Shown here: piece after piece, positions 25,852 to 45,672 of the stretch
Layout: each line of letters opens with the position of its first letter
Numbering within the stretch: the first letter of the stretch is position 1
NCBI RefSeq assembly: GCF_014530035.1
Contig: NZ_JACVMX010000003.1
Location: 248,001-312,000, forward strand
Length of the DNA stretch: 64,000 nt
From: Leucobacter sp. cx-328
Lineage (GTDB): Bacteria; Actinomycetota; Actinomycetes; Actinomycetales; Microbacteriaceae
Direction: 5' to 3'
The notes under the pieces: model-generated
The model's database searches: none
What the model was told of the DNA's origin: nothing
What the model saw: the letters and a program-made list of their open reading frames with translations, nothing else
Translations under genes and position numbers: made by a program

Positions 25852-27117
25852 CTAGCGGCGCACCGCGAACGGCGTCAGGTCAAGGTTCTTCCCCTTCACC
25901 TGTGTAACGCGGTTCGCGACGAGGTCTGCAACCACCTCACCGGTCACGGGGCCGAGCGAGAGGCCGTGCATGTTATGGCCAGACGCGACGATGACGTCTG
26001 CGCGGCCAGGCACGCGGCCAAGCAAGGGCATGCCGTCTGCGGTCATGGGACGCGGGCCAACCCATTCATCGGTGCGATTTTCCCAGTCGCCACCGGTGAT
26101 GAGTCCGGCTGCCGCGCGAGTCAGCACGTCAAATCGATCGCGGTTCATGCGGGTGGGCTGCTGGTCGAATTCCATCATGCCGACGATGCGCAAGCGGCCG
26201 TGCATAGGAATGGCGACGCAGTGGCGATCCATCGCGTGAATGAGGGTCGATGGCATCGTCTCAACGGACACCGTGAAGCTGTAGCCCTTGCCCGAGACCA
26301 CCTTGGTCGAGCGCACGCCTGAGCGCTGCAAGAACGGCGTGGTCCACGCACCAGCGGCGACGACCACCTTGTCACCAGAGATCGTCACGGGCTGGCGAAT
26401 CTCGTCTTCGCACTCAACGCTCGCGCCCTGGCCAAGGCGCAGTGCGGTAAGTCCGGTGCGCACGTCGGCACCAGCTGCACGAATGTGGTCGGCGAGGCTC
26501 GCAACGAACGTCACGGGATCCAGCGAGAATTCTGCGGGCAGCATGAAGCCACCGGTGACGCCGGGGTCAAGCGTTGGCTCGTGGGCCGCAAGTTCAGCGT
26601 TGCGCATGATCTTGCCAGGCGCCTCGCCCCAGCCGAGGTCGGCGCGATGCTGGTAGCCTGCGTGCGCTGCCTGCAGCGCGCCTTCCTCTGAGCAGGTCAT
26701 GAGGTAGCCGTCGCCACCACCCGAAATGTCAATACCGTCTGCGGCCATACGGTGCATCGCGGGCAGAATCTCACCAGAAAACTGGGCGAGGGCTGCCGAT
26801 CCGCGGGCAGTGCCGCGCTTACCCGACGCTTTGATGAAGCCAAGGCCGAAGCCCGCGAGCGCTGGGAGCCGCAGGGCATCGATCGAGAGGTAGGAAGTGC
26901 GCGTAAACACGCCACGCAAAACGTCGCGAGCTGTGTTTGGCGACGCGAGCGGGGCAACCTGCTGCGGAGTGAGTTCACCAGCGTTGCCAGTGGCGGCGCC
27001 AGCGCCAAGATGGTCGCGCTCAATGATCGTGACTCGGTGGCCATCGCGCAGCAGCGCGTACGCCGAACTCAGACCGATGAGGCCGCCACCGACCACGACA
27101 ACGTGCTGTTTCTTCAA
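25852..27117 (-). CDS. dadA: D-amino-acid dehydrogenase (DadA-like FAD oxidoreductase)
   Basis: A 421-residue FAD-dependent oxidase/dehydrogenase of the DAO family. The dinucleotide motif VVVGGGLIGLSSAYAL (residues 6-21), 'NAGELTPQQVAPLASP' and the C-terminal 'RPMTADGMPLLGRVPGRADVIVASGHNMHGLSLGP' region resemble DadA, which deaminates D-amino acids at the membrane to 2-oxo acids. Last gene of a leftward operon of peptidases and an epimerase, which suggests it consumes D-amino acids freed by them. Glycine/sarcosine oxidase activity cannot be excluded. Confidence 0.8.
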   Translation of the reverse strand: MKKQHVVVVGGGLIGLSSAYALLRDGHRVTIIERDHLGAGAATGNAGELTPQQVAPLASPNTARDVLRGVFTRTSYLSIDALRLPALAGFGLGFIKASGKRGTARGSAALAQFSGEILPAMHRMAADGIDISGGGDGYLMTCSEEGALQAAHAGYQHRADLGWGEAPGKIMRNAELAAHEPTLDPGVTGGFMLPAEFSLDPVTFVASLADHIRAAGADVRTGLTALRLGQGASVECEDEIRQPVTISGDKVVVAAGAWTTPFLQRSGVRSTKVVSGKGYSFTVSVETMPSTLIHAMDRHCVAIPMHGRLRIVGMMEFDQQPTRMNRDRFDVLTRAAAGLITGGDWENRTDEWVGPRPMTADGMPLLGRVPGRADVIVASGHNMHGLSLGPVTGEVVADLVANRVTQVKGKNLDLTPFAVRR

Positions 27118-27161
27118 TTCATCTCTCCTTCGAGTGAACGGGGGTAGATTTGAGTGGCCGA

Positions 27162-29345
27162 CTAGCCGATGATGACGCGTGGGCGCCGTCCGTCGAGTTC
27201 TGATGCCTCGGCCGAGGTCACTGACAGGCTCTGCACGAGGGGTTCTGCGAGACCAATCAGACGGACCTCACAGAACAACTCACCGCGATCGCACGCAATC
27301 GACCAGCGCAAGTGGGCAGCATCGTCTGCTGAGTGAATCCGCGAAGCGAATGCCGACTGACCGGCAGAGATCGGACCGATGTCGGCGAGCAAGGCATCGA
27401 TCCGCGCCCGCCGAACCGGCTCGGGAACATCGAGCAGCACGTTGGTCGCGAGCACACCCGTGTCTGCGAACGTCGTATTGTGGCGGATCGCAGCGTCAAG
27501 TACCTCGGCAGCGTTGAGGGTGGCTGGCCATGGCCGCGTCTCCTCAGCGGGAGCGTCGACCGCAGCGAGCACGCGAACGAGTGCGTCGGCGGCGAGGCGT
27601 TCCGTGCGGAAGACATCGGAGTTTCCGAATGCCACCGCACCGATGCCGGTCGCGAGCTGCCAACGCATGTGCGAGCTGAAGCCAGGAAGACCGCCGGAAT
27701 GCTGGGCAATTCTGCCGTGCTGACGATCGTGCTCAACTGCGAGCCCGTAGCCATAACCGAGCGCCGCAAGATCGCGATAGGGGCCAGCATCGCCGACGGG
27801 AATAACCGCATGCACGCGTTGCATTTCGCGGCGGCTGTGTGCCGAAAGCACCTCGGGGCGCAGCGGAGCGACCGAGAACCCAGAGGCGAGGAAAGCCGAC
27901 CAGGCCGCAATGTCATCGACCGTGCTGAAGAGTGCGCCGATGCACGCGAGCGCGCCAGAGCCGACGAATGGTTCGGGTACGAAGCTCGCACCGTCGTCAA
28001 AGGTGCGGAAACCGTGCGCAAGATCGTGACCGGGGACGTACTCTCCCGCTTCGTAACGTGTCGAGTCGAGCCCGAGCGGGCCGAGGAAGCGCGAGCGCAC
28101 CTCTGACTCAACGGTATTTCCGGTGACTGCTTCGATTGCACGACCGACGTAGGACATGCCGATGTTCGAGTATTGGTATTTCTCGCCAGGCAGTGCGGTG
28201 AGTTCGAAGCCGTGTTCACCGAGCGCGGCAATTTCCTCCCGGGTGACGCCGAGGGCGCGGTCGCCGTACGCATTGTCCTCAGGCATGCCCGATCGGTTCG
28301 CCAGGAGCTCACCTACGGTCACCTGTCGGGCTTCGCCCTGCCACCGGAACAGGACCCCAGGAACGTACTCGTCCAAATCTCGGTTGAGATCGAGCCGCCC
28401 TTCATCGCTCAGTGCGAGGGCAGTTGCCGCGAGGAAGCTCTTCGACATTGACGCGATACGGAAGACGGTGTCTCTGGCAGTGGCGTCACCGTCGCGGCGG
28501 GGCTCGCCGATTCCGCGCCAAGCAATGATGCCGGTGCGGTCAAAGAGCGCCACACTCACGGCGGGCGCAACCTCAGTCGCGGCAGCCGCGGCGGCCTCAT
28601 CGAGCGCGCCCTTTGCGGCAGCGACGATGCGGGGCGATCCGCCCATCTCTGCAGCGAACGCATCGATCAGCTGCCGGCTCGCAGACGTGTTCTCACCGTG
28701 CACCGCACGCGCTGCCGCCAGCAGGTCGGCAATGTCGAGCCCCTCCTCGCGGAGCGCTGCATCATCCCAATTCTGCAGATCTGCGGCACTGGCCTCGGGG
28801 TGAAACTGCACCGCACGCACATGCTCGCCAATGACGAATGCCTGGTTCTCGATCGCATCACTCGACGCGAGCAGCACCGCGGTCTCGGGAAGCCGCGTGA
28901 TCATGTCTTCGTGGTTTTCGATCATGTGGGCCGAGTGGCCAATCACACCAATGACACTGTCTTCACGGCCAGCCGGCGTGGTGTGGATCGCGGTCGCCCC
29001 GCGTTCCTTCGGGCCGGTCTTCGCCTGGACCTCGCCGCCGGCGACCTTCGCGATCACTTGCGCACCTAGGCAAATACCGAGCGTTGGCAAGTCCTGTTCG
29101 ATTGCCTGGCGCACGAGATCGCGCTCTGCTGGCAGCCAGGGGGCGCGCTCGTCGTCGTCTGGCATGAGTCCGCCGCCGAGCAGCACGAGACCGTCGAACC
29201 CGTCAAGCGTTTCAGGAAGGCCGTCGGCGCCGTGAACAGCGACGACCTCGACTCCTGCATGTTCGAGCCACGTTGCGAGGCGACGCGGTCCCGAGCTCGG
29301 CGAGTTGACGACCACGAGTGCTCTCGGGGTGTGCGGGCTAGTCAT
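27162..29345 (-). CDS. Glutamine-amidotransferase / beta-lactamase-fold serine hydrolase fusion
   Basis: A 727-residue fusion. Residues 1-235 form a class I glutamine amidotransferase-like domain with a complete triad: Cys92 (GICLGAQ), His182 and Glu184 (QFHPE). Residues 240-600 form an S12/beta-lactamase-fold hydrolase with SMSK (Ser299, Lys302), YSN (392-394) and HSG (549-551). About 125 C-terminal residues form an extra domain I do not recognise. No signal peptide. It lies between an M19 dipeptidase and DadA in one operon, so it probably hydrolyses an amide or peptide of an imported compound. Both active sites look intact. ATG 29345. Confidence 0.75.
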   Translation of the reverse strand: MTSPHTPRALVVVNSPSSGPRRLATWLEHAGVEVVAVHGADGLPETLDGFDGLVLLGGGLMPDDDERAPWLPAERDLVRQAIEQDLPTLGICLGAQVIAKVAGGEVQAKTGPKERGATAIHTTPAGREDSVIGVIGHSAHMIENHEDMITRLPETAVLLASSDAIENQAFVIGEHVRAVQFHPEASAADLQNWDDAALREEGLDIADLLAAARAVHGENTSASRQLIDAFAAEMGGSPRIVAAAKGALDEAAAAAATEVAPAVSVALFDRTGIIAWRGIGEPRRDGDATARDTVFRIASMSKSFLAATALALSDEGRLDLNRDLDEYVPGVLFRWQGEARQVTVGELLANRSGMPEDNAYGDRALGVTREEIAALGEHGFELTALPGEKYQYSNIGMSYVGRAIEAVTGNTVESEVRSRFLGPLGLDSTRYEAGEYVPGHDLAHGFRTFDDGASFVPEPFVGSGALACIGALFSTVDDIAAWSAFLASGFSVAPLRPEVLSAHSRREMQRVHAVIPVGDAGPYRDLAALGYGYGLAVEHDRQHGRIAQHSGGLPGFSSHMRWQLATGIGAVAFGNSDVFRTERLAADALVRVLAAVDAPAEETRPWPATLNAAEVLDAAIRHNTTFADTGVLATNVLLDVPEPVRRARIDALLADIGPISAGQSAFASRIHSADDAAHLRWSIACDRGELFCEVRLIGLAEPLVQSLSVTSAEASELDGRRPRVIIG

Positions 29346-29364
29346 GGGGAATTCCTTAGTTCTT

Positions 29365-30456
29365 TCAGTTTCGCTGTTCGGTATCGACCGCGGGGACGAT
29401 CACGGGCGCAGCAGCTTCACCGGCAGTGCCAGCAAGGAATGCACGGTAGTCGTCGTCCGACGCGTCGAGGACGCGAAGTACGTTTTCGTGCGCGAGACCG
29501 CGCAGCTCAGGCTCGGTCCAGCCACGACGCTCCAGCTCGGCAAAGAGTGCCGGGTAGCCAGACACATCGCTGAGTCCTGTAGGCAACGCATCGGTGCCGT
29601 CGTAGTCCGCGCCAATGCCGACCGCGTGGACACCCGCAATCTTACGGACATGATCGATATGATCTGCCACATCTTCGACGCCGACGTACGGCGCTTCGCC
29701 GACCTCACCGGCCTCAACCCAGAGCCTGCGCTCTTCGTTGAGGAACGAGGGAACGAACGCCACCATGACAACGCCACCACCCTCGCCAATCTTCGCGAGC
29801 ACATCGTCAGGGACGTTGCGCTTGTGGTCACAGATCGCGCTCGCACCAGAGTGGCTCACCATCACGGGGCGTGTGCTCTCCTCGAGCGCGTGCCGCATGG
29901 TGTCGGGTGACACGTGCGCCAGGTCGACGAGCACACCAATGCGGTTCATCTCACGTACGACCTCGCGGCCGAAGTCGGTGAGTCCGCCATGCACACGCTC
30001 GTCGGTTGCCGAGTCTGCCCAGTCAATCGTGCGCGACCAGGTAAGCGTCATGTAGCGGGCACCGAGGCGAGCGAACTGACGGAGTGTTGCAAGCGATCCG
30101 CCGATCTGGGCACCGCCCTCAATGCCAATCAGCGAGGCAACCTTGCCGTCAGTGAGCGCGGATCGGGCATCAGCTGCCGTGCGCGCCAGGCGGAGCTGGT
30201 CAGGATAGGTGTCGACAAAGCGGTAGACGAAGTCGATCTGTTCGAGGGTCGCAACGACCTGCTCTGCTCCCTGAAGCACAGGATCCACCCACACCGACCA
30301 GAACTGGCCGCCAACGTTGCCAGCCGCGAGGCGAGGCAGGTCAGTCTGCAGGTTCGGGACGCCGGTGTCGAGTTCGGCAACCGAGTATTTACGGTCGATA
30401 CGGCATGCCCATGCAAGGTCATTGTGGCCGTCGATGACCGGGTAACGAGTGGTCAT
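29365..30456 (-). CDS. M19 membrane-dipeptidase-like dipeptidase
   Basis: A 363-residue zinc peptidase of the renal dipeptidase (M19) family. Metal ligands are visible: HND (His11, Asp13), Glu112 (IGIEGG), 'VDLAHVS' and 'MVSHSGA'. M19 enzymes cleave dipeptides and accept D-residues at the C-terminal position. No signal peptide, so cytoplasmic. It overlaps the epimerase gene upstream by 4 nt, and the fusion gene starts 19 nt downstream. Confidence 0.9.
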   Translation of the reverse strand: MTTRYPVIDGHNDLAWACRIDRKYSVAELDTGVPNLQTDLPRLAAGNVGGQFWSVWVDPVLQGAEQVVATLEQIDFVYRFVDTYPDQLRLARTAADARSALTDGKVASLIGIEGGAQIGGSLATLRQFARLGARYMTLTWSRTIDWADSATDERVHGGLTDFGREVVREMNRIGVLVDLAHVSPDTMRHALEESTRPVMVSHSGASAICDHKRNVPDDVLAKIGEGGGVVMVAFVPSFLNEERRLWVEAGEVGEAPYVGVEDVADHIDHVRKIAGVHAVGIGADYDGTDALPTGLSDVSGYPALFAELERRGWTEPELRGLAHENVLRVLDASDDDYRAFLAGTAGEAAAPVIVPAVDTEQRN

Positions 30457-31589
30457 GCGAGATCCTCCTCAGCGGAATCGAAAATTGCGGTCGAAAGCTC
30501 TTGGATACGTGCGGTGTCTACCTCGAACCCGAGGCCCGTTCCGGTCGGCACCGCGACGACACCAGAGACCGCGACCACTGGCGGGTCGATGATGTCACGC
30601 TCGTAGTACTTATCTGAACCGGAGACATCCGACGGCAGCAGGAAGTTCGGCAGCGACGAGATCGCAACGTTTGCAGCACGCCCAATGCCGAACTCGTGCA
30701 TGCCACCACACCACACGGGCACACCAGCGTCTGCAGCAACATCGTGCGCGCGCTTCGCCTGCGAAAGACCGCCCATCCGCGAGACCTTGATGTTGAGAAT
30801 GCGTCCAGCATCAAGGCGCAACATCGTTTCGAGATCTTCAATCGTCACGACCGATTCATCGAGACAGATCGGCGTCTCAATCATGGCCTGCAGTTCGGCG
30901 TGCGATACGAAGTCACGCACACCGAACGGCTGCTCGATCATCGTGAGCCCCTGAGTGTCGAGTTCACGGAAGATACGAGTCGATTCCACCGAACGGGGGT
31001 AGGCGCCATTCGCATCGACGTGAACGTCGAGCGCGGGGAACGCTCCGCGCACCGCACGCACGGCCTCGACGTCCCAACCGGGCGCGATCTTCAGCTTTAC
31101 GCGGCCGTAGCCCGCGCTGGTGTGCTGCGCCACCTGAGTAAGCAGCGCGTCAATCGACGGTTCGATCCCGAGTGAGACACCAGCGACGACCTCGGTGCGC
31201 GTGCCACCGAGGGCCTGCGACAGCGAGACACCACCGCGCTGGGCGAACAGATCCCACGCCGCACCAGCGAAGCCAGCCTTCGCGAACTCGTGCCCGCGCA
31301 CCTTCGCCCACGTCGCTTCGAGTTCCTCGGGCCAATCCCACGATGCACCGAGCACCGCTGGCGCCAAGTACTTCGTTGCGAGCAGCCAGGCCGTATCAAT
31401 GGTCTCTGAGCAGAAGAATGGGTCACTCGGTGAAGCGATCTCGCCCCAACCGATCCGCCCATCGGAGTCAGTCAGCTCTACGAGCAGGTGCTCGATGCCA
31501 GACTTCCGGTGGGAGCTTGTCTGAAAGCTGTGCCGCAACGGGAGGCCCATTGAATATACGCGCACACGCTGAATTGTCACTGCAGTCAC
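30453..31589 (-). CDS. Enolase-superfamily racemase/epimerase (N-acylamino-acid racemase or dipeptide epimerase)
   Basis: A 378-residue member of the muconate-lactonising subgroup, related to o-succinylbenzoate synthase/NSAR. Catalytic Lys pair in 'RVKLKIAPG' and 'NIKVSRMGG', and metal ligands in 'DANGAY', 'EQPF' and 'LDES', are all present; 'GGMHEFGIGRA' resembles NSAR enzymes. No menaquinone genes are nearby, while peptidases and DadA are, so epimerisation of N-acyl amino acids or of L/D dipeptides fits better than OSB synthesis. GTG start with GGGGAG, 2 nt after the SIS gene. Confidence 0.82.
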   Translation of the reverse strand: MTAVTIQRVRVYSMGLPLRHSFQTSSHRKSGIEHLLVELTDSDGRIGWGEIASPSDPFFCSETIDTAWLLATKYLAPAVLGASWDWPEELEATWAKVRGHEFAKAGFAGAAWDLFAQRGGVSLSQALGGTRTEVVAGVSLGIEPSIDALLTQVAQHTSAGYGRVKLKIAPGWDVEAVRAVRGAFPALDVHVDANGAYPRSVESTRIFRELDTQGLTMIEQPFGVRDFVSHAELQAMIETPICLDESVVTIEDLETMLRLDAGRILNIKVSRMGGLSQAKRAHDVAADAGVPVWCGGMHEFGIGRAANVAISSLPNFLLPSDVSGSDKYYERDIIDPPVVAVSGVVAVPTGTGLGFEVDTARIQELSTAIFDSAEEDLA

Positions 31590-31591
31590 GT

Positions 31592-32266
31592 TTACTCCCC
31601 TGCTCCATGTCCCGGCTGATACAGCGCAATTTGCGCCGCATATTGATCACGCACCGCCAGACGACGTCGCGCACCCTTCGCGCTCGCCGTCGTCAGCGTG
31701 CTGAGGAGGTGGCAGACCGCGGCAACCGCGGTCGGGGAATCCGCGTATGAGACAGAACCCGTGCGTACCTTGATGAGTGCCGTCGCATAGTGCGCGAGCG
31801 GGCATTCTTCACTGTCAGTAATGACGACGAGCTGACCACCAGCCTCTTTGAAGAGTCGACCAAGTTTGATGGTTTCCTCACGGTAGCGCCGCATCGAGAA
31901 CACGATGAGCACGTCGCTCGCGCGCACATCGGTGAGCACCGTGATTGGCGACAATCCCCGTCCATCGATGAGGAACACGTTGGACAGCGTCGCAGACAGG
32001 TCGGCGTTCAGGAGCTGCGCGTAGGCCGCAGATTTTCCCTCGCCGCCGATGTAACGCCGGCGCGCGCTCAGAATGAGGGCGGCCGCACGGGGAACATCAC
32101 CGGTCTCCGCGAGCTCTTCAAGTGTTTGTGCGAGCGAACTGAGTTCGCTCTCGATCACCTGTGACTGAATACCCTCAGCAGACAGGTTGGTCTTCAGCCG
32201 TTCGCCAAACCGATCTTGCGGTGAGACGAGCGAACGGTTGAGTGCGTCTTCCTCTTCGTGCTTCAT
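31592..32266 (-). CDS. SIS-domain protein, RpiR/MurR-like but lacking the HTH
   Basis: A 224-residue protein. From about residue 55 it matches the linker and sugar-isomerase (SIS) domain of RpiR/MurR regulators ('IGGEGKSAAYAQLL', 'VLIVFSMRRYREETIKLGRLFKEAGGQLVVITDSEECPLAHYA'). The usual N-terminal HTH of about 75 residues is absent: only some 35 residues precede the linker. It is coupled by ATGA to the GNAT gene, so the short form is natural. It may bind a sugar-phosphate or peptide ligand. Whether it regulates at all is unclear. Confidence 0.7.
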   Translation of the reverse strand: MKHEEEDALNRSLVSPQDRFGERLKTNLSAEGIQSQVIESELSSLAQTLEELAETGDVPRAAALILSARRRYIGGEGKSAAYAQLLNADLSATLSNVFLIDGRGLSPITVLTDVRASDVLIVFSMRRYREETIKLGRLFKEAGGQLVVITDSEECPLAHYATALIKVRTGSVSYADSPTAVAAVCHLLSTLTTASAKGARRRLAVRDQYAAQIALYQPGHGAGE

Positions 32267-33108
32267 GCGCTCTCCTCGTGGGGTGTGGGCGGCCGGTCCG
32301 CTGGCACCGCAAGATACGCGGCGGAAAGTTCATCTATACGGCGGCAGTCGATCAAGACGTGGCCGTCGGAAATAAGGCCGCCGAGCACACCGGCGAGAGC
32401 ACCTCGAATTTCAGCGGTCGCAGCAGCGTCCTGATCAGTGGGTAACGAAACCCAAACACCATGCTCGTCTTCGACCGGGGTCGCCCACTGTGCCGTGGTG
32501 AGCCGGGGCGGCGTCGATCCGCGCAGTGCGAGATGGGGCGTCGGAGCATCGCCGATTGCCCACTCAACGATGAGTCGATCAGTCTCACTCCGACCGTAAT
32601 AGTCGTGGAGGAAGCCGGTGCCGGTAGCGCCGAGGGTACCGAAGTTGAAGTGTCCATTGCGGGCAAGGATCGGATCAAACGTCCAGCGCATCGTCGTGTG
32701 CCCCCAACGTTCGGCGACCGCGCGCTGGAGCTGCTTGAGCTCACGGCCGATACCGGAACCTTGATACGCGGGATCAACAACAGCCGACTGCGAGTAGTGA
32801 AAGTCGCGGCCATGCTCATCGCGCCCGGCAAAGCCGTATGCAAAACCCACAAGCTTTTCGTTGCGGGTATACACACCGACGGCCGACCCGCCGTTGTCTT
32901 TGAGCGCAAACATAAGGTTTGGGTTCAGCGCAAAGCTAGGATCTTCGTAACCGAACACCCGAACGTAGAGTTCATTCGCTGCACGGAAGTCTTCGTACGT
33001 CGAGAGTTCTCGGCCGAATAGCCCGCGACCACCCTGAGCATTCAGGTGCGCGAGTGTGGTCCGTGGACTGGGAGCGACAGCGGTCCCGATCGACATCGTT
33101 GTGATCAT
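32263..33108 (-). CDS. GNAT acetyltransferase (COG3375-like)
   Basis: A 281-residue N-acetyltransferase-fold protein with the acetyl-CoA loop in 'AVVDPAYQGSGIGRELKQLQRAVAERWG' (R/Q-x-x-G-x-G/A pattern). 'TMRWTFDPILARNGHFNFGTLGATG' is characteristic of the COG3375 group, often found next to N-acylamino-acid racemases. I chose ATG 33108 because a good promoter ends 7 nt before it. It heads a six-gene leftward operon down to dadA. It may acetylate amino acids or peptides so that they become substrates of the racemase. Confidence 0.75.
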   Translation of the reverse strand: MITTMSIGTAVAPSPRTTLAHLNAQGGRGLFGRELSTYEDFRAANELYVRVFGYEDPSFALNPNLMFALKDNGGSAVGVYTRNEKLVGFAYGFAGRDEHGRDFHYSQSAVVDPAYQGSGIGRELKQLQRAVAERWGHTTMRWTFDPILARNGHFNFGTLGATGTGFLHDYYGRSETDRLIVEWAIGDAPTPHLALRGSTPPRLTTAQWATPVEDEHGVWVSLPTDQDAAATAEIRGALAGVLGGLISDGHVLIDCRRIDELSAAYLAVPADRPPTPHEESA

Positions 33109-33115
33109 GATTCGT

Positions 33116-33192: not shown

Positions 33193-33199
33193 TCGTAAC

Positions 33200-37554: not shown

Positions 37555-38463
37555 ATGGATACTGCAACAGTCTCAACGACCAGCGCTCGCACCCTCGCGC
37601 GGAAGCGCCGTGCCGATGCGGCCCGTGCCAACTGGCGCGCATTCGCGAAGCAGCCTGGTGGCGTCATCGGACTCATCGTGCTCATCATCGTGCTCGGCCT
37701 CGCGGCGTGCGCGCCCCTCATCGCCGATGTCTCAGTGCTCGACCCCACGAACGCCGAGGGTCGCCCATTCGAGGCTCCCTCAAGCACCTTCTGGCTCGGC
37801 ACGGATTATCTCGGCCGCTCGGTCTTGCCGCTCCTCATTTGGGGCGCGCGAACCTCGCTCACGGTTGGCATCGCGGCAACGATCACGTCGATGATCATCG
37901 GTACGTTGATGGGCCTCATGGCAGGCACGCTGCACGGCTGGCGATCCGCAATTGTCATGCGCGTGATCGACTTCTTCCTCATCATTCCCGGCCTCGTTCT
38001 CGCGATCGTGCTGGGCGCGGTGCTCGGCTCGAGCACCTTCACGATTGTGGTCGCGATTGGTGTGACTTCGTGGGCTGGTACCGCGCGAATGATCCGCGCG
38101 CAGACCCTGTCGCTCGAAAACCGCGGCTACGTTGAGCGCGCACGCGCACTCGGCGCGTCACAGTCGCACATCACCTGGCGCCATATTCTGCCTGGCGTGA
38201 TGCCGCTCGTCCTCGCAAACACCTCGCTTGCGGTCGGCGTCGCGATCATCTCAGAGGCAACGCTTGCCTTCCTCGGTATTAACGGTGGCGGTATCTCATG
38301 GGGCACCATGCTCCAGCAGGCCATGGGCTCGGGTGCCGCGGTTGCAGGATTCTGGTGGCTCATTGTGGCCCCGGGTGCCGCGATCCTCATCGTTGTTCTT
38401 TCTTTCACCCTCGTGAGCCGCGCCCTTGAGACCGTGGTCAACCCGACGCTCGGAGGTCGCTAA
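37555..38463 (+). CDS. Peptide ABC transporter permease, DppC type
   Basis: A 302-residue permease with an N-terminal helix, 'HLGTDYLGRSVLPLLIWGARTSL'-type region ('WLGTDYLGRS' here) and the EAA loop 'RARALGASQSHITWRHILPGVMPL'. ATG 37555 with AAAGGCGG upstream; the frame is open back into dppB but without homology. Stop and next start overlap as TAATG. Confidence 0.92.
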   Translation: MDTATVSTTSARTLARKRRADAARANWRAFAKQPGGVIGLIVLIIVLGLAACAPLIADVSVLDPTNAEGRPFEAPSSTFWLGTDYLGRSVLPLLIWGARTSLTVGIAATITSMIIGTLMGLMAGTLHGWRSAIVMRVIDFFLIIPGLVLAIVLGAVLGSSTFTIVVAIGVTSWAGTARMIRAQTLSLENRGYVERARALGASQSHITWRHILPGVMPLVLANTSLAVGVAIISEATLAFLGINGGGISWGTMLQQAMGSGAAVAGFWWLIVAPGAAILIVVLSFTLVSRALETVVNPTLGGR

Positions 38464-40163
38464 TGTATGCACTGCAGTTCGAGGATGTCTCGATCTCCTA
38501 CCGCACCCGCAATGAGGCAGGCGAGCCGATCGATTACGAAGCGGTCAAGAACGTCACGCTCCGTCTTCCGAAGCGCGGCACGCTCGGCATCGCTGGCGAG
38601 TCAGGGTCTGGCAAGTCGACCCTCATCATGTCGGCGCTGCGTCTGCTCCCCGACAGCGCGACCGTCACCGGCACCGTCAAGCTCGGCGACAAGAACATGA
38701 ACGAGCTCTCCTGGGGTCAGGTGCGAGCCGTCCGCTGGAAGGAAGCATCGATTGTCTTCCAGGGCGCGATGCACTCGCTCAACCCGGTACAGCGCATCGG
38801 CAAGCAGATTGCTGAAGCCATGGAGCTCCACGATCCGAAGGCGCACACCAAGCGTGGCAAGAACGCCTACCGCGCCGAGGTCATCTCGCTGCTCGAGCAG
38901 GTGGACCTGCCGGCGCGCACCGTAGATTCGTACCCCCACGAAATCTCTGGCGGCCAGAAGCAGCGCGTCATGATCGCGATGGCACTCGCGTGTGACCCCG
39001 AGGTCATCATCGCTGATGAGCCGACCACCGCGCTCGACGTGATCGTGCAGGAGCGCGTCCTCGACCTCCTCACGAAGCTCGTCGAAGACCGCGGTCTCTC
39101 GCTCCTCATGATCACCCATGACCTCTCGGTACTTGCGCGCACGTGCAAGGAGATCGCGGTCATGTACCACGGCGAGATTGTGGAGTCGGGCCCCTCGCTC
39201 GATATCCTCACGAACCCGCAGCACCCGCACACTCGCGCGCTCACGGACGCGGTGCCGGTCATCGGCGATCCGAAGAGCCGGATGAACCCCGCAAGCCGGA
39301 AGCAGAGTGAGCCAGGCAGCACGACCGTCGTGAGCGTTGTGCCGGAGGGGCCAGGCGACGAGCTGCTCGGCGCCGACAACCTGTCGGTGCGCTTCCAGAC
39401 GCGCGTCGGTGAGGTGCGCGCGGTCGACGGCGTCGACCTCAGCTGCCGCGAGGGCGAGATCACCGTTCTCGTCGGCCAGTCAGGCTCTGGCAAGACCACC
39501 CTCGTTCGCACGGTGCTCGGGCTCCAGGCACCGACGGGCGGCAACGTCCGTTTCCGCGGCAAGCCGCTCAGCCGCAAGCAGCGCGACCTGCGTGACTACC
39601 GCGGAAGCGTGCAGTTCGTATTGCAGGACCCAATGTCAGCGCTCAACCCCAAGCACACCGTCTACGAGCTCATCGCAGAGGGCATTCGGGTGCAGGGTCT
39701 GCAGGGTGACGAGCGCCAGCGTGTACGTGAGGCGCTCATTGCTGCCGAGCTGTCTCCGCCAGAGCGCTTCTTCGCGAAGCTGCCGAACGAGCTCTCCGGC
39801 GGTCAGCGTCAGCGCGTCGTCATCGCGGGCGCACTCGCGCTTGAACCGGAGTTCATCATCGCCGACGAGCCCGTCGCATCGCTCGATGCCTCGGTGCGTG
39901 GTGAGATCCTCGCGCTGCTGTTGCGTCTCAAGCGCAACCTCGGCCTCGGCTGTCTGGTCATCACCCACGACCTCGGCGTCGCGTGGAACATTGGTGACCG
40001 CGTGCTCGTTATGCACCAGGGACGCATCGTCGAGGCTGGCGCCGCGGAGGATGTGCTCCTCCGCCCAGAACACGAGTACACGAAGCAGCTGCTCGCGGCA
40101 GTCCCAACCATGCGCCAGCCAGCTGCGGCGCAGGCCTCGAACGATCACGTCGAAGGGCAGTAG
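38463..40163 (+). CDS. Peptide ABC transporter, fused double ATPase (DppD-DppF)
   Basis: A 566-residue protein with two complete nucleotide-binding domains. Domain 1: Walker A GESGSGKST (45-53), signature ISGGQ, Walker B 'VIIADEPTT'. Domain 2: Walker A GQSGSGKTT (about 337-345), signature LSGGQ, 'FIIADEPVASLDASV'. It therefore supplies both ATPases of the importer in one chain. The linker (about 280-310) is Pro/Ser-rich. The start overlaps the upstream stop by 1 nt. Confidence 0.93.
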   Translation: MYALQFEDVSISYRTRNEAGEPIDYEAVKNVTLRLPKRGTLGIAGESGSGKSTLIMSALRLLPDSATVTGTVKLGDKNMNELSWGQVRAVRWKEASIVFQGAMHSLNPVQRIGKQIAEAMELHDPKAHTKRGKNAYRAEVISLLEQVDLPARTVDSYPHEISGGQKQRVMIAMALACDPEVIIADEPTTALDVIVQERVLDLLTKLVEDRGLSLLMITHDLSVLARTCKEIAVMYHGEIVESGPSLDILTNPQHPHTRALTDAVPVIGDPKSRMNPASRKQSEPGSTTVVSVVPEGPGDELLGADNLSVRFQTRVGEVRAVDGVDLSCREGEITVLVGQSGSGKTTLVRTVLGLQAPTGGNVRFRGKPLSRKQRDLRDYRGSVQFVLQDPMSALNPKHTVYELIAEGIRVQGLQGDERQRVREALIAAELSPPERFFAKLPNELSGGQRQRVVIAGALALEPEFIIADEPVASLDASVRGEILALLLRLKRNLGLGCLVITHDLGVAWNIGDRVLVMHQGRIVEAGAAEDVLLRPEHEYTKQLLAAVPTMRQPAAAQASNDHVEGQ

Positions 40164-40172: not shown

Positions 40173-41393
40173 ATGACCAGCACCGAAACTATCCTCGCTC
40201 GGGCGACCGACCCGCGCTTCACGCGTCCCCGTATCCTGGTACTTGAGGCCGATACTGGCCGCTCGCTCCTCGAACGCGCCGCTGACCGCGGCGAGGAGAC
40301 CGCCAGCGTCATGAAGACAATCACCTGCGCTGCCGCACTGCACGAGCTCGGCCCGGACCGTCGTATCGAGACACGCGTGGTGCGCGGATCGGCACCGGGC
40401 GAAATCGTCATCATCGGTGGCGGCGACGTCACCCTCAGCCGGGTGCCTGATGACGGACCAACGTACTACGACTCCCCCGCTCGCATGGACGTGCTCGCAC
40501 GGGACACCCTCGCGGCACTCGGCAATGAGGCGCCCACCCGCCTGGTCTACGACGATTCGCTCTTTGCTGGCGGCGAGTGGCTCACTGGCCAGTGGCTTGA
40601 CGAAGACCGCAACCCCGAAGGCTACATCCCGATGATCTCGTCACTCCAGGCAGACGGCGATCGCGAGGATCCCGCTGCAGACGACAGTCCCCGCAGCGCC
40701 GATCCAGCTGGGAACGCAGCGCGTGCGTTTGCCGCCTTCCTGGGGGACGATATTGCGGTGGTGCGCGGATCCGCTCCCGCAAATGCCGAAGAACTCGCGG
40801 TCGCGAAGTCACACACGATCGAGGAACTCGTGCGCGAGTGCCTGCGCACCTCGGACAACGGGCTCGCGGAAGCGCTTGCGAAACTCGCGGTGATCGAGCG
40901 CGGCGAAGACGGCACCTTCGACGGGGTGAAGCGTGGCCTCACCGGCGTGCTGCGCGACCTTGGCGTCCCCACCGAGGGTGTGGAGCTGCAGGACGGCTCT
41001 GGTCTGAGCGACTACATCAAGGTGCCCGCGCGCACTATCGCGGATCTCATTCGCCGCGCGCGACTGCGCGAGGGAATCCTTGGCATGCTCGACGACCGGC
41101 TGAGCCGCACCGGGCCGAACGGCACTATGTACAGCGCACGCTTCACTGGCGAGAACGCCATCGTCGGCGATGCCGTGCGCGGCAAGACCGGCTTCATCAA
41201 TTCGGTGCACTCGCTCGCGGGCGTTGTTCGTACGCTCGATGGCGCAGATCTCGTGTACGCCGTTTTCGCGATGGGCGAGGACATGTCGCCCGAGCATCCC
41301 TCGCGCGTGGCAATCGACGACTTCGTGACCAGCCTGCACCTGCACGGCGACGCGCTGCTCACGCACGGCGAGACGATTCTGCTCGACGACTAG
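40173..41393 (+). CDS. S13 D-Ala-D-Ala carboxypeptidase-like protein without signal peptide
   Basis: A 406-residue PBP4/DacB-family (S13) serine peptidase. All three motifs are intact: SVMK (Ser45-Lys48) in 'ETASVMKTITCAAAL', SDN (227-229) and KTG (338-340). 'DDSLFAGGEWLTGQW' and 'DGSGLSDYIKV' are family hallmarks. Unlike typical PBP4 enzymes it starts directly with the fold, with no signal peptide or membrane helix, so it is probably cytoplasmic. It follows the importer ATPase by 9 nt in the same operon, implying action on imported peptides ending in D-Ala or similar. Confidence 0.85.
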   Translation: MTSTETILARATDPRFTRPRILVLEADTGRSLLERAADRGEETASVMKTITCAAALHELGPDRRIETRVVRGSAPGEIVIIGGGDVTLSRVPDDGPTYYDSPARMDVLARDTLAALGNEAPTRLVYDDSLFAGGEWLTGQWLDEDRNPEGYIPMISSLQADGDREDPAADDSPRSADPAGNAARAFAAFLGDDIAVVRGSAPANAEELAVAKSHTIEELVRECLRTSDNGLAEALAKLAVIERGEDGTFDGVKRGLTGVLRDLGVPTEGVELQDGSGLSDYIKVPARTIADLIRRARLREGILGMLDDRLSRTGPNGTMYSARFTGENAIVGDAVRGKTGFINSVHSLAGVVRTLDGADLVYAVFAMGEDMSPEHPSRVAIDDFVTSLHLHGDALLTHGETILLDD

Positions 41394-41496: not shown

Positions 41497-42435
41497 TTAG
41501 GCATCGAACTCGATGCGTGGGTTCTCGTCAGCGGTGAGCGTCGCAGTGATGCCAGCGCCGATCGGGAACGAAGACACATCGGGACCGTGCCCGAAGCGCA
41601 GACCCCAGATGACCGGGATACCGAGCGGCTCGAGCAGCTCGGTCAACAGCGCCTTCACCTCGTCCAGGTCCCCACAGTCGACCCAGGTGCCGAGACCGAC
41701 CGCGAGCGCACCCTCGAAATAGCCCGAGCGCAGCAAAATCTGCATGAGGCCATCGATCCGGTACGGCGACTCGTGGACCTCTTCGATGAGCACGATCTTG
41801 CCCTTCGCGCGCTCGAGTGTGGTCGGGTGTGAGCCGACGCTCATTACGAGCAGCGAGAGGTTGCCACCGGTGAGCTGGCCTGTTGCGGCGCCCGGCACGA
41901 TGGTTGCGGTGTCGGTATCGCCGGCGATCTCCAGTGGCCCCTCGCCCAGCACGGCAACGCGCAGGTCCTCGACGTTGTTCGGCGACAGTAGCAGGTCGTT
42001 GGTGGCGATCATCGGGGTGAACCAGGTGGGAACTCCGAGCCGCTGCTCCCAGAATTCGTGGAGTGCGGTGATGTCAGAAGACCCGATGAGCGGCTTCGAC
42101 TCAGCCGCGGCGAGCACGTCGACGTCAAGGAGATCGATGATGCGGATCGCGCCGTAGCCACCGCGTACACAGAAGACAGCGTCGATCTCGGGGTCTGTCC
42201 ACGCTGCCGTGAGATCCGCCGCCCGATCTGCATCGCTGCCAGCCAGATACCCGTGAGCGCGCTCATGCCGGTCAAGCACGTGCTTGCCGCGGACGGGAAC
42301 GAGGCCCCACGAGCGCAGGAGCGCTTCGGCTTTCTCGACGGCTTCTTCGGTCGACGGCCCCGATGGGCTCACCAGCGCGCAACGGGCACCTGGCGCGAGT
42401 GTGCGGAGTGCGGGTGAGGTGTTCCGAATGGTCAT
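41497..42435 (-). CDS. S66 LD-carboxypeptidase (LdcA/MccF-like)
   Basis: A 312-residue serine peptidase of family S66. The nucleophile is Ser120 in 'LIGSSDITAL'; the Glu and His lie in 'VLIEEVHESPYRIDGLM' and 'GLRFGHGPDVSSFPIGA'. LdcA enzymes trim D-Ala from murein tetrapeptides in the cytoplasm; MccF-type relatives cleave peptide nucleotides such as microcin C. Given the neighbours, murein peptide trimming is the better guess. ATG 42435 with AAAGGAG. Divergent from the second M20 gene. Confidence 0.9.
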   Translation of the reverse strand: MTIRNTSPALRTLAPGARCALVSPSGPSTEEAVEKAEALLRSWGLVPVRGKHVLDRHERAHGYLAGSDADRAADLTAAWTDPEIDAVFCVRGGYGAIRIIDLLDVDVLAAAESKPLIGSSDITALHEFWEQRLGVPTWFTPMIATNDLLLSPNNVEDLRVAVLGEGPLEIAGDTDTATIVPGAATGQLTGGNLSLLVMSVGSHPTTLERAKGKIVLIEEVHESPYRIDGLMQILLRSGYFEGALAVGLGTWVDCGDLDEVKALLTELLEPLGIPVIWGLRFGHGPDVSSFPIGAGITATLTADENPRIEFDA

Positions 42436-42645
42436 GTCGCTCCTTTGTGACAGTGTGGCGGGACCCACGCAGCCCACTTTACGATTCGTAAGACAGGAAC
42501 ACAAGAGTCGCGACTGGGTCAGATCCTCATGTAAATCAATAAAAGTTGCTGCGTTATTCACCGGCGACAGATAGTGTTTATGTGACGTAACTTCGGTGCG
42601 CCAACGGCGGCGCACGGTACGAACCTCAGAGAGGACGGTTCGCGA
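42436..42645. promoter_or_regulatory. Divergent control region between S66 and M20 genes
   Basis: 210 bases. A perfect 13-bp palindrome TTACGATTCGTAA (42479-42491) lies on the S66 side and another CGTAA half-site in GACGTAAC near 42585 on the M20 side. AT-rich stretches around 42535-42550 could hold the rightward promoter. The palindrome is an operator candidate. Confidence 0.4.
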
Positions 42646-43965
42646 ATGACCGCAGAGATGACAGCGGCCGAATTGTGTGCGCACTTCGTTCGCTACGACA
42701 CTTCAAACTTCGGTAACGGCAAGAGCAGGGGCGAGACTCAACTTGCGGAGGAGATCGCTCGCATTCTCGCTGATGCGGGCTATGCGCCCGAGCTCTACGC
42801 GCCGGAACCCGACCGCGCATCGGTCCTGATCCGCATTCCCGGTCGCGATCGCAGCCTGCCCGGCGTGCTCGTGCACGGCCACCTCGACGTCGTACCCGCC
42901 GAGCCGGAGCAGTGGCGCGTGCCGCCCTTCGAAGGGCGAATCGAAGACGGATACGTATATGGTCGCGGATCAGTCGACATGAAGGACATGGTCGCGATGA
43001 TGGTCGTGACCGCGCTCGAGTGGGCGAAGCGGCGGATCGTGCCAGAACGCGACGTTGTCTTCCTTTGGGTCGCCGACGAGGAGGATCGCGGCGACTGGGG
43101 CGCCGGCTGGCTCGTGAAGGAACGTCCGGAGCTCTTCGCGGGCATCGGCGCAGCGTTCGGCGAATCTGGCGGCCAGGCGATGCCCCTGACGGCGAAGGAC
43201 GGCTCTCCCGTGACGCTCGTCCCCATCGCGGTTGCCGAGCGCGGCACACTCCACATGCGGCTGCGCGCTGAGGGCGTTTCAGGCCACGGCTCGCGCCCCG
43301 CGCCGGGCAGCGCGATTTCCAAGCTGCTCGCAGCAGCGCAGCGCCTCAACGAGCACAAGTGGCCGCTGCAGATGGTCGACGCCGTGCGCACCTACATCAC
43401 CGACACGAACGCCGCGCTCGGCTACGAAGCCGACCTCACAGATGAAGCGGGCGTTGCCAAGGCGATCGAGCAGATGGGCGAGGCCGGTACCGTCGCACGC
43501 GTCACCGTCCGTTGCTCATCTACTACCACGGTGCTCAACGCCGGCTACAAGGTCAACGTTATTCCCGGCGTCGCCGAAGCCGAGATCGACGTGCGCTGCG
43601 TGCCAGGCACGTTCGAGTCAACGCAGGCGGTGCTCGCCGAGCTCGTCGGCCCCGATGTCTCGCACGAGTACATCGACCCGGGCAAGCCCACCGACTTTTC
43701 GCACCATTCACCATGGTTCGCGGCAATGCGCGAAGCGGTACTGCGCTCACGCCCCGAAGCGGTCGTCGTCCCGTTTTGCATGGGCGGCGGTACCGACGCA
43801 AAGTCCTTCGCCAAGCTCGGCATCGAATGCTTCGGCTTCGCCCCGCTCACCCCCGACCCCGACGGTCGCCGCTCAGGTGGCGTGCACGGCGTTGACGAGC
43901 GAGTCCCCGTGGCTTCAGTCAACGGCGGCCAGCTCATCCTCAGCGACTTCCTGCGCTCGGTCTAA
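42646..43965 (+). CDS. M20 metallopeptidase (DapE/dipeptidase-like)
   Basis: A 439-residue zinc peptidase with HGHLD (His77-Asp81), 'GRGSVDMKDMVAMMV', 'VADEEDRGDWG' and a dimerisation domain (about 190-310). It belongs to the longer M20 dipeptidase group, acting on short peptides or N-acyl amino acids. No signal peptide. First gene of a three-gene unit with two beta-lactamase-like genes. Confidence 0.88.
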   Translation: MTAEMTAAELCAHFVRYDTSNFGNGKSRGETQLAEEIARILADAGYAPELYAPEPDRASVLIRIPGRDRSLPGVLVHGHLDVVPAEPEQWRVPPFEGRIEDGYVYGRGSVDMKDMVAMMVVTALEWAKRRIVPERDVVFLWVADEEDRGDWGAGWLVKERPELFAGIGAAFGESGGQAMPLTAKDGSPVTLVPIAVAERGTLHMRLRAEGVSGHGSRPAPGSAISKLLAAAQRLNEHKWPLQMVDAVRTYITDTNAALGYEADLTDEAGVAKAIEQMGEAGTVARVTVRCSSTTTVLNAGYKVNVIPGVAEAEIDVRCVPGTFESTQAVLAELVGPDVSHEYIDPGKPTDFSHHSPWFAAMREAVLRSRPEAVVVPFCMGGGTDAKSFAKLGIECFGFAPLTPDPDGRRSGGVHGVDERVPVASVNGGQLILSDFLRSV

Positions 43966-43987
43966 CCCTCATCTGTCAAGGAACACC

Positions 43988-44887
43988 ATGAAGAATCCAG
44001 ACTTCGGTCTCGACGATGACCCCCGCGGCATCGTCAGCGACTACTCCGACGGCATCCCCGTCATCTCCTACACGCTCGTCGACGCTGACGGTACCGTCCT
44101 GCGCGAGCAGAATGCCTCACTCCCCTATTACTCCGCATCAACTGTCAAGGTCGGTGTCCTCGTCGCTGCACTGCGGCGGGTGCAAGCTGGCGAATGGCGT
44201 CTCGACGATCCGCACATCGTCACGCACGAGTATGCGAGCATCGTGCCCGACGCGCCCCGGTTCACGATTGAGATCGAGGAGACCGATCCCGGCCTCGGCG
44301 CCCCCGGCGACACCGTCCCCCTCGCGCACTTGCTCAACCGAATGACGACCGTGAGCGCCAACTGCGCCACGAACATGCTGTTCGAAGCGTTGGGGGCGGA
44401 TCGCATCGCCGCCGTCTCACTCGACGCAGGCTCGCCAGACACCGGCCTTGATCGGCCCTACTCCGACGTTGCAGGCCTCGAAGCCGGCGTCACGAACCGC
44501 GCCTCGGCACTCGGCCTCGCACGGCTCATGGCTGCGCTGGTTCGTGGCGCACTCCTCGACGCAGAGCACACCGCAATCGCGATGCAGCTCCTGCGAGAGC
44601 GTGAGGAGCCCGTCATCAGCACGGCAGCACAGGTCTTCGGTGAACGCACCGGCGTCGCAATCGACACCGGCAGCAAGGGCGGCAGCGTCGACGGCATCGC
44701 CCATGACTTTGCCTTTATCTCGCGCGACGGCATCATGCAGTGCCTCGCGGTCTGCACCCGCGGCTACACCTATGAGCAGGGTGCTGCCGCGATCTCGGCG
44801 ATCACCGCGGCGCTACTCTCCTCGACTCCCGCGACAGCGGCTTCGGCCACCTCAGCGAGCATTTCTCAGGACGGAGCACAGGCATGA
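43988..44887 (+). CDS. Class A beta-lactamase-like serine hydrolase, cytoplasmic (1)
   Basis: A 299-residue protein of the beta-lactamase2 type. STVK (Ser51-Lys54), 'VSANCATNMLFEALG' (SAN in place of SDN) and a third motif reading KGG in 'GSKGGSVDGIAHDFAFI' are visible. There is no signal peptide and it begins with a charged tail. ATG 43988 with AAGGA. It overlaps the next, paralogous gene by 4 nt. Likely an amidase or DD-peptidase on imported peptides; beta-lactam hydrolysis is possible but unproven. Confidence 0.8.
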   Translation: MKNPDFGLDDDPRGIVSDYSDGIPVISYTLVDADGTVLREQNASLPYYSASTVKVGVLVAALRRVQAGEWRLDDPHIVTHEYASIVPDAPRFTIEIEETDPGLGAPGDTVPLAHLLNRMTTVSANCATNMLFEALGADRIAAVSLDAGSPDTGLDRPYSDVAGLEAGVTNRASALGLARLMAALVRGALLDAEHTAIAMQLLREREEPVISTAAQVFGERTGVAIDTGSKGGSVDGIAHDFAFISRDGIMQCLAVCTRGYTYEQGAAAISAITAALLSSTPATAASATSASISQDGAQA

Positions 44888-45672
44888 GCGTCGCGAAGCG
44901 CGGTGAGCCCAATGTCTCGTTCACCCTCATCGATCAGGCCGGCACCACCCTCGCAGGTTGTGACGAGACGCAGACCTACTACGCAGCGAGCACGGTGAAG
45001 CTTGCCGTCGCGGCTGCGGTCATGTTCGCGGTCGAAGCCGGCACGCTGCACCTCACCGATGAGTTCCCCGTGCGGCTCTCGTTCGCGAGCCGCATTCCTG
45101 ACGCAGAGCCGTTCGGTTTCGAGCCAGCGGAGCAGGACCCTGGCCTTCCCGAGGTCGGCACCATGATGAGCGTTGACTGGTATCTCGAGCGCATGATCAC
45201 GGTGTCGTCGAACGAGGCCACGAACATTCTCATTGAGGCGCTGGGCGCTGGGGTGGCTGGCATCAACGCGGTCGAGGCTGCACTCGATCGCCTCGGCGTG
45301 CGCAATGTAGAGATGTCTCGCCTCATTTGTGACTATCCCGCTGCGCTTGCAGGCTACACGCACTCGGTCACCACGCGCAGTCTCGCGGATCTGGCTCTCG
45401 CTGTCGTGTCCAGCGAGGAGCTCGCACCTTCCTCGCGCGCGGTCATCCTTGGCTACATGCGGGCGCAGCTGTTCCCGATGATCGCGCCAGCGCTTCCCGC
45501 TGGCGCTGTCTGGGGCGCAAAGAGCGGCTGGGACGAAGGTATCCGCCACGACGTCGCCGTCATTGGCGAGCCTGGAACTCCGGAATTCCGCGTGCTCGCG
45601 GTGTGCACGAAGGCGTTCTACGCGGCTGGCGCACAAGAGGCGATTGCCGCGGTTACCCGCGCCGTGCTTTAG
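44884..45672 (+). CDS. Class A beta-lactamase-like serine hydrolase, cytoplasmic (2)
   Basis: A 262-residue paralogue of the previous gene. STVK (Ser36-Lys39), 'VSSNEATNILIEALG' (SSN) and KSG in 'GAKSGWDEGIRHDVAVI' are the three motifs. No signal peptide. ATGA overlap with the upstream gene implies coordinated synthesis, perhaps as a heteromeric pair. Sequence differs enough from its neighbour that the duplication is old. Confidence 0.8.
   Translation: MSVAKRGEPNVSFTLIDQAGTTLAGCDETQTYYAASTVKLAVAAAVMFAVEAGTLHLTDEFPVRLSFASRIPDAEPFGFEPAEQDPGLPEVGTMMSVDWYLERMITVSSNEATNILIEALGAGVAGINAVEAALDRLGVRNVEMSRLICDYPAALAGYTHSVTTRSLADLALAVVSSEELAPSSRAVILGYMRAQLFPMIAPALPAGAVWGAKSGWDEGIRHDVAVIGEPGTPEFRVLAVCTKAFYAAGAQEAIAAVTRAVL

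Follow-up and report, generated by a model that had tools for sequence, protein, structure and literature searches.

The subject of this report is a cluster of genes for a peptide importer, several peptidases and an N-succinylamino acid racemase (NSAR) at positions 25,852 to 45,672 of a 64-kb window of Leucobacter sp. cx-328 (contig NZ_JACVMX010000003.1; the window is the whole stretch of 64,000 nucleotides that was analysed, and all positions are counted within it). The host genome comprises 2.64 Mb in 14 contigs. Protein families were assigned by Pfam and NCBIfam profile scans with curated cut-offs, and relatives of solved structure were ranked by score; the start codons of the genes were assumed, and the gene coordinates depend on these. 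Every gene type listed in a preliminary description of this DNA was found at its position by Pfam and NCBIfam. On the minus strand, one unit begins with a GNAT acyltransferase carrying a C-terminal extension (32263..33108; PF00583, 31.4 bits against a cut-off of 20.7), followed by a stand-alone SIS-domain protein resembling RpiR without its helix-turn-helix (HTH) domain (31592..32266; PF01380 only), which lies directly upstream of the NSAR-subfamily enzyme of the enolase superfamily (30453..31589; TIGR01928, 275.1 bits). The unit continues with an M19 dipeptidase (29365..30456; PF01244, 369 bits; closest solved relative 3id7, 346 bits) and a fusion of a class I glutamine amidotransferase (GATase) domain (residues ~1-236) with a PF00144 serine hydrolase (27162..29345; Pfam and structure relatives), and ends with a DadA-like flavin adenine dinucleotide (FAD) oxidoreductase of the DAO family (25852..27117; PF01266, 186 bits).

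The plus strand starts with M20a, a carboxypeptidase G2-like M20 enzyme proposed to be an N-acyl-L-amino acid deacylase (33200..34339; Pfam and structure relatives). After a gap of 356 bases follow an oligopeptide-type substrate-binding protein (SBP) of the SBP_bac_5 family (34696..36462; PF00496, 257 bits), the OppB-type permease (36474..37538; PF00528), the OppC-type permease (37555..38463, assumed start; PF00528), an OppD-OppF double ATPase (38463..40163; PF00005 in two stretches, oligo_HPY) and an S13 peptidase in which no signal peptide was read (40173..41393; motifs SVMK, SDN and KTG). An S66 LD-carboxypeptidase lies on the minus strand (41497..42435; PF02016, PF17676), and the plus strand then carries the M20b peptidase (42646..43965; NF005913, 489 bits against a cut-off of 382) and two class A-like serine hydrolases of family PF13354, the first with STVK, SAN and KGG (43988..44887) and the second with STVK, SSN and KSG (44884..45672). 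According to these coordinates, neighbouring genes within the units overlap by a few bases or are spaced by no more than about 45 bases.

This arrangement recurs around NSAR relatives in other genomes. The best 80 of 285 relatives were examined, with up to 10 kb on each side; some contigs end sooner, and the far genes (S13, S66, M20b and PF13354) are therefore under-counted. The loci are related to each other, and the counts do not equal independent events. Within 10 kb of NSAR, GNAT was found in 78 of the 80 loci, SIS in 71, M20a in 68, oppDF in 34, the GATase in 32, M19 in 32, the PF00144 part in 30, S66 in 16 and the DadA-like gene in 4, with the two PF13354 queries in 1 and 2, S13 in 1 and M20b in 0. 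GNAT, SIS and M20a occurred together within 4 kb of NSAR in 64/80 loci under 22 genus labels, including some metagenome-assembled genomes, and M20a was divergent in 63 of these. The SBP, oppB and oppDF were near NSAR in 26/80 loci under six genus labels (19 loci from Microbacterium); all 26 of these importer loci had M19 and a GATase match, and 14 had S66. A GTPase gene on the outer flank of the locus (at 23540) had a counterpart within 10 kb in 1/80 loci. The idea that the genes do not co-occur in relatives is thus refuted, and importer and hydrolases form a recurrent unit. The open reading frames of the 80 loci were also clustered and one representative per family was scanned, revealing a class IV aminotransferase family in 21/80 loci, 13 of them from Microbacterium (one member scanned), and an Amidohydro_3 family, which we take to be D-aminoacylases, in 12/80. 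The preliminary description made oxidation by DadA a step of the route; set against the 21 loci with a class IV aminotransferase, the four loci with a DadA-like gene do not bear this out, and DadA-type oxidation looks like a lineage-variable accessory. A C39-like peptidase family was likewise seen in 12/80 loci; in the loci compared for its position (L005, L020 and L030; L denotes a locus and G a genome examined) it sits between the SBP and M20a, and the gene (e.g., L020:5874-7274) has an operator-like site, of the kind described next, right at its start in L029 and L030.

The control regions of the locus share an operator-like palindrome. Across 64 intergenic regions between GNAT and M20a, one 8-mer was present in 26 (maximum 6 in 20 letter shuffles) and one 10-mer in 16 (shuffle maximum 3). 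A 17-base matrix was built from 52 non-redundant regions, together with a held-out version from 48 regions without Leucobacter and Zimmermannella, and its consensus is roughly palindromic, ATACG-N3-CGTAT. With the held-out matrix, ranks 1-5 in the 64-kb window all fall inside three control regions of the locus, and the sixth, at 12.6 bits, lies elsewhere. The best site of the window (33184..33200, 23.0 bits) abuts the assumed M20a start codon, and another (33108..33124, 17.2 bits) abuts the assumed GNAT start codon; two are found upstream of the importer (34490..34506, 18.2 bits; 34378..34394, 16.6 bits) and one between S66 and M20b (42477..42493, 17.9 bits). Symmetry is clear at 33184, 34490 and 42477, which also match a strict pattern, but not at 33108 and 34378. 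In 40 shuffled windows, the mean maximum was 13.3 bits and the highest 18.7 bits, with an average of 0.6 sites of at least 13 bits. The strict pattern occurs at four distinct sites in the whole 2.64-Mb genome, three of them in the locus, and the reversed-pattern control gave one; the fourth lies on contig 5, 114 bases ahead of the earliest start codon that an operon of the order oppB-oppC-ATPase-ATPase-SBP could use (L136:1588-7169, at ~49.6-55.2 kb of that contig; four of its five genes were scanned). The linkage of the genes, which had been drawn from proximity and operon overlaps, is thereby strengthened, as the control regions also have this palindrome in common.

The 80 loci, which add up to 1.54 Mb and include the training regions, contain 140 sites of at least 14 bits, of which 59 lie before M20a, 58 before GNAT, 13 before the SBP and 10 elsewhere. 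In separately retrieved stretches, strong sites at matching places were present in genomes G053, G051, G099 and G151. The same holds for G046 and G002, to which L004 and L007 belong and which likewise stood outside training, and G012 has two sites of 16-18 bits. Seven loci around distant NSARs had no operator-like site of at least 13 bits save one of 14.1 bits. Of 65 loci, 28 have the nearest in-frame GNAT start 8 bases from the site centre and 23 have the nearest in-frame M20a start 9 bases from it; the two outer sites were 75-77 bases apart in 33. The left arm of the palindrome, TAGGAT, resembles the -10 box of leaderless actinobacterial promoters, fitting divergent leaderless promoters that would be covered by a repressor. 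The palindrome is not a mere -10 box, as its right arm is conserved too and sites far from starts exist. The genome has four RpiR-type genes at other places, and a search for the regulator among them was negative: the best site in their ~3.2-kb loci scored 9.9 bits, and none reaches 10. A match of 14.7 bits before an RpiR gene of Priestia was not used, since an AT-rich plasmid was here scored with a matrix made for a GC-rich background, and a stray match of 19.5 bits lies in the same stretch. Operator-like matches were also noted over the first codons of PepC-like peptidase genes in three genomes of the same genus (PF03051; L113:7028-8386, L112:3944-5299 and L109:8102-9460), which may be a coding coincidence.

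Among 54 genomes of the same genus, presumably Leucobacter, a close NSAR (at least 67% identical) is found in 5, including that of the window, and an NSAR of 40-44% identity in 12; S13 has a match in 4/54 and the second PF13354 protein in 9/54, and S13 was not retained as a widespread member of the locus. Across the family, S13 has a match in 144/199 genomes; beyond the first three, the matches listed are 33-44% identical and presumably ordinary S13 enzymes, and two of these genomes, G099 and G151, were examined further. Several arrangements of the genes exist. In G012, G016, G033 and G007, M20b lies beside SBP-oppB-oppC-oppDF-S66-PF13354-DadA-like, and NSAR is missing from this locus; two of the four, G016 and G033, encode a distant NSAR at another site. 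In G053, S66-S13-Opp adjoins SIS-M19-GATase/hydrolase without GNAT or NSAR, and a distant NSAR with GNAT and M20a is located elsewhere. The set was absent from the stretches around the PF13354 gene in G015 and G014. Outside the genus, G099 (L128) keeps the order PF13354 second gene, M20b, S66, S13, Opp, M20a and GNAT-SIS-NSAR, with one extra PF00144-like gene, in a stretch that ends within NSAR, and G151, from a third genus, has S13-Opp-M20a beside GNAT-SIS-NSAR-M19-GATase-DadA-like, with S66 not detected. All seven distant NSARs (40-44%) that were fetched, out of 13 listed, keep M20a and GNAT alongside. Sixty-four plasmid records have an NSAR match, and in three of the six viewed (Priestia, Stenotrophomonas and Streptomyces), GNAT lies near it together with a gene for an M20 enzyme or an 'amidohydrolase'. 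NSAR relatives labelled menC outside any visible men operon were seen in the plasmid records of Priestia, Lactiplantibacillus, Stenotrophomonas, Streptomyces and Nitratireductor, i.e., five of the six viewed, and the Pseudomonas relative sits in a true men operon; this suggests that some genes annotated menC are NSARs.

The closest named relative of the racemase, from Leucobacter sp. cx-42, is 97% identical at the protein level. Its own score of 275.1 bits exceeds the TIGR01928 cut-off of 200.65 bits (a model named o-succinylbenzoate synthase, OSBS), and, against solved structures, it reaches 287 bits with the N-acylamino acid racemase 2ggg and 91 bits with the L-Ala-D/L-Glu epimerase 1jpm. 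Of the label NSAR or dipeptide epimerase in the preliminary description, the first part therefore stands and the second, a ykf-type epimerase, is rejected on the scores; two L-Ala-D/L-Glu epimerase models gave 61 and 58 bits, with cut-offs of 500 and 343. The motif strings KLK 165, DAN 192, EQP 219, DES 244 and K268 are present, and we take them to be the catalytic lysines and metal ligands. The excerpt of PMC8142540 describes paired catalytic lysines in the NSAR/OSBS subfamily. A divergent second NSAR match (28%) lies at ~98.7 kb of contig 14, among frames that look CoA-ligase-like and MenB-like by eye, and the locus copy is therefore probably dispensable for menaquinone.

GNAT and an M20 gene complete the likely context of this racemase, as they are encoded with it in 78/80 and 68/80 loci, respectively. 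Sakai et al. (2006) reportedly described an NSAR pathway for the irreversible conversion of D- to L-amino acids with just such a module of GNAT, NSAR and M20 enzyme, and the closest solved relative of M20a is carboxypeptidase G2. By analogy with this pathway and with reviews of NSAR chemistry (PMC8142540, PMC7431475), inversion of D-amino acids probably proceeds on their N-acyl derivatives, which M20a would then deacylate, so that oxidation is not their only fate. Where an epimerase had been thought to invert one centre, acylation of D-amino acids by GNAT, racemisation of the N-acyl forms and deacylation by M20a would be the better description.

None of the peptidase-type enzymes has an N-terminus resembling the signal peptide of the SBP, in agreement with the earlier remark that the hydrolases lack one; the call is based on a hydrophobicity heuristic combined with visual inspection, and no trained predictor was used (scores: SBP 2.06, the Rossmann start of the DadA-like protein 1.75 and the second PF13354 hydrolase around SxxK 1.93). 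The SBP has a signal-peptide-like N-terminus without a cysteine, and a C-terminal hydrophobic segment with a basic tail, and it seems to be anchored via its C-terminus, not as a lipoprotein. By string match, the usual motifs are kept in S13, S66, M19, both M20 enzymes and the serine hydrolases, and S66 and M19 each have one match in the whole genome. The structure 3id7 is that of the Streptomyces coelicolor dipeptidase Sco3058, a bacterial homologue of renal dipeptidase that reportedly prefers dipeptides with a C-terminal D-residue. Glutamine amidotransferases are the best relatives of the GATase domain (76 bits) and gamma-glutamyl peptidase 1 is the fourth (60 bits), and a gamma-glutamyl bond as its target is a guess. 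The PF00144 part of the fusion best matches alkaline D-peptidase and D-Ala-D-Ala carboxypeptidase. Both parts are fused in the Leucobacter loci L003 and L004 and present but unfused in 28 loci, and the fusion suggests that they may share a common task. The two PF13354 proteins, with 39 and 62 bits, fall below the curated class A beta-lactamase cut-off of 200. The protein previously called DadA is a member of the DAO family, and the label DadA is weak, with 168 bits against a cut-off of 383 and glycine oxidases as nearest solved relatives.

The SIS protein, of 224 amino acids, was previously described as MurR-like. Its SIS domain is real (PF01380 is the sole domain found), with the SIS domain of RpiR, 3sho, as best solved relative (E 4e-9) and 26% identity to the RpiR protein beside the Priestia NSAR (pairwise E 5e-13). 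The likeness to a regulator does not extend further: Pfam found no DNA-binding domain, the N-terminal HTH being absent, and identity as a MurR/RpiR regulator was rejected. Its 49 aligned members have 21 invariant positions, 7 of which are arginine or lysine. In a class-wide sample of 296 genomes, 19 had a SIS match at 1e-30. Sixteen matches, including that of the window and 12 from one genus, exceed 300 bits, and all 16 lie directly upstream of an NSAR; the NSARs adjoining the 15 others are 61-64% identical to that of the window. Of the remaining three matches, one is separated by ~9 kb from an NSAR of 55% identity, and the others belong to genomes with no NSAR match at 1e-60. Among the NSARs listed, none of those with 38-45% identity has a SIS gene beside it. 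An HTH-less stand-alone SIS protein thus appears usually to accompany the close NSAR clade.

The occurrence of SIS follows that of operator-like sites of at least 14 bits: 68 of the 80 loci have both, 7 neither, 2 SIS only and 3 the operator only (Fisher p 1e-6, for loci that are related and mostly served as training data for the matrix). The SIS-only loci are L072, a contig of 3.6 kb, and L027, where the SIS match is partial and neither GNAT nor M20a was found; in Nesterenkonia, three loci have SIS and operator-like site and six have neither. Against SIS as the operator binder, L005 and L016, both from Leifsonia, carry a site and no nearby SIS by profile search, G012 has its two sites and no SIS match, and in L079, SIS is ~9 kb away. 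The association may reflect locus architecture only, because the seven loci with neither also lack M20a. It can be suggested, tentatively and with less than even confidence, that the SIS protein is an RpiR relative that has lost its HTH and senses D-peptides or N-acyl-amino acids for a new actinobacterial regulon. The protein might control the palindrome through an unrecognised DNA contact or a partner repressor, and the palindrome, overlapping leaderless divergent promoters, would couple import to D-to-L conversion.

Taken together, the locus is likely a co-regulated one for the use of peptides containing D-amino acids, and the theme of D-peptide import and breakdown in the preliminary description is supported by synteny and the shared palindrome. 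Families, motifs, synteny and operator-like sites are observed; from them follow, as inferences, the substrates, the nature of the acyl group, the direction in which the route runs, repression and the existence of a regulator. The membrane-anchored SBP and the Opp-type ABC transporter would import short peptides. Once these are in the cytoplasm, cleavage of bonds at D-residues would fall to S66, S13 and the three hydrolases with a beta-lactamase fold, the GATase domain would cleave gamma-glutamyl links, and M19 would split dipeptides with a C-terminal D-residue. Released D-amino acids would be acylated, probably succinylated, by GNAT; NSAR would racemise the N-acyl derivatives and M20a deacylate the L-form to yield L-amino acids, with part of the D-amino acid pool possibly oxidised by the DadA-like enzyme. 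One regulator, acting on the WTAnGAWWCGTAW-type palindrome, may govern three control regions and five unit starts (GNAT, M20a, SBP, S66 and M20b), and may also act at the site before the second peptide importer. The peptides may stem from the wall of the cell itself, from walls of other bacteria or from further D-peptides, and the patchy distribution of the locus speaks for exogenous nutrients.

Several observations weigh against this reading. A lone site of 16-18 bits is not decisive, given the shuffle maximum of 18.7 bits; 15/27 importer loci have no site of at least 14 bits before the SBP (12/27 do), and the importer loci L105, L106 and L108, which lack NSAR, have no site of at least 13 bits. 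Plasmid loci rich in AT (L122, L123 and L125) give matches of 14-19.5 bits at places with no evident tie to genes of this kind, which indicates that scores in AT-rich DNA are inflated by the matrix. The close NSAR is confined to 5/54 genomes of the genus, and M20a and the M20 enzymes beside distant NSARs are only 32-37% alike. By tblastn, an M20a match is absent beside the NSARs of Priestia, Stenotrophomonas and L. plantarum, and three of the six plasmids misfit, with mannonate dehydratase and sugar-acid genes, an M20 gene without GNAT, and a men operon, respectively. GNAT has no relative of solved structure at E 0.1. The succinyl group is an analogy only, because NSARs are promiscuous and used on many N-acyl groups, according to the excerpt of PMC7431475.

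Other explanations can be weighed against the use of D-peptides. That the locus chiefly recycles stem and bridge peptides from the peptidoglycan of the cell itself is a lesser though serious possibility, as S66, S13 and M19 are families suited to murein peptides, and E. coli and B. subtilis apply LD-carboxypeptidase, an endopeptidase and L-Ala-D/L-Glu epimerase to such peptides (PMC2954226, seen in excerpt). Leucobacter has type B peptidoglycan with diaminobutyric acid (excerpts of PMC4511665 and PMC4804768), a wall in which more D-residues may need inversion. Yet type B is given for all six strains in the tabulated excerpt, while few genomes of the genus have a close (5/54) or distant (12/54) NSAR, and no murein-sugar gene was found among the locus proteins scanned with Pfam. 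General peptide scavenging, with mostly ordinary peptides as substrates and the D-specific enzymes reserved for occasional D- or isopeptide bonds, is rather unlikely: the Opp-type SBP and the M20 enzymes are generic and the second Opp operon bears an operator-like site, but S66, S13, M19 and NSAR with GNAT are biased to D-chemistry, and a class IV aminotransferase, DadA-like or Amidohydro_3 gene lies near NSAR in different lineages.

It is very improbable that the locus detoxifies or uses N-acyl or beta-lactam-like compounds through intracellular beta-lactamase-fold enzymes. While three such parts are present and NSARs act on many N-acyl groups (PMC7431475, in part), no member of the fold reaches the curated cut-off of any beta-lactamase model that it matches, signal peptides are seemingly lacking, and the importer, S66 and M19 would be left unexplained. 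A chance neighbourhood of unrelated genes is scarcely credible, because synteny recurs across genera while the flanking GTPase is near in 1/80 loci, and the shared operator-like sites contradict it as well. The use of imported D-amino-acid peptides remains the preferred reading. With it, the physiological role of actinobacterial NSARs becomes testable via peptides with D-residues, and the locus supplies candidate cytoplasmic D-peptidases. The operator-like palindrome, the SIS protein that is usually paired with the racemase, and the D-amino acid enzymes that lie close to the racemase in particular lineages offer further handles.

Beyond its two ends, the locus has neighbours of other kinds. 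A PF00144 serine hydrolase gene (24772-25830), convergent with the DadA-like gene, keeps its place next to the locus in both L003 and L004 and has no operator-like site of at least 13 bits near it. Downstream, a protein that looks membrane-spanning and has no Pfam match (45804-46514) and an ABC-type ATPase gene (46511-47443) are apparently unrelated to the locus.

Known systems resemble parts of the locus. The Sakai-type NSAR pathway shares the NSAR-subfamily enolase, GNAT and the M20 gene, a set recurring beside distant NSARs; the locus adds the Opp importer, S66, S13, M19, GATase, serine hydrolases, SIS protein and operator-like sites. The ykfABCD-dpp locus of B. subtilis, as far as the excerpted source describes it, likewise places a peptide ABC transporter near an S66 enzyme and an enolase-superfamily epimerase for cytoplasmic breakdown of D-peptides; here, in contrast, the enolase is of the NSAR subfamily, GNAT, M19, GATase and serine hydrolases are added, and the Pfam scans of the proteins gave no NlpC/P60 match. 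The M19 enzyme is similar to the 3id7 dipeptidase (346 bits) and differs in sitting inside a presumed D-amino acid operon. In a further system, DgcN is an N-acetyltransferase and DgcA an enolase-superfamily racemase, a role also contained in the NCBIfam name. According to the excerpt of PMC12363236, racemisation in this D-glutamate pathway is irreversible and dgcN is its key gene. The locus differs from it, as its NSAR reaches only 86 bits with the DgcA model (cut-off 400) and its acyltransferase is a GNAT. In open-licence PMC full texts, most of them judged by their listing, no description of the union, the operator or the SIS partner was found, which leaves their absence unproven. The preliminary description, which knew of no described locus with this set, thus stands for the whole as far as these texts reach, but the ykf/dpp genes of B. 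subtilis and NSAR operons belong beside it as precedents for its halves. D-peptide import and hydrolysis on the one hand, and an N-acyl D-to-L module on the other, would therefore each be familiar, and it is their union in one apparent regulon that looks new.

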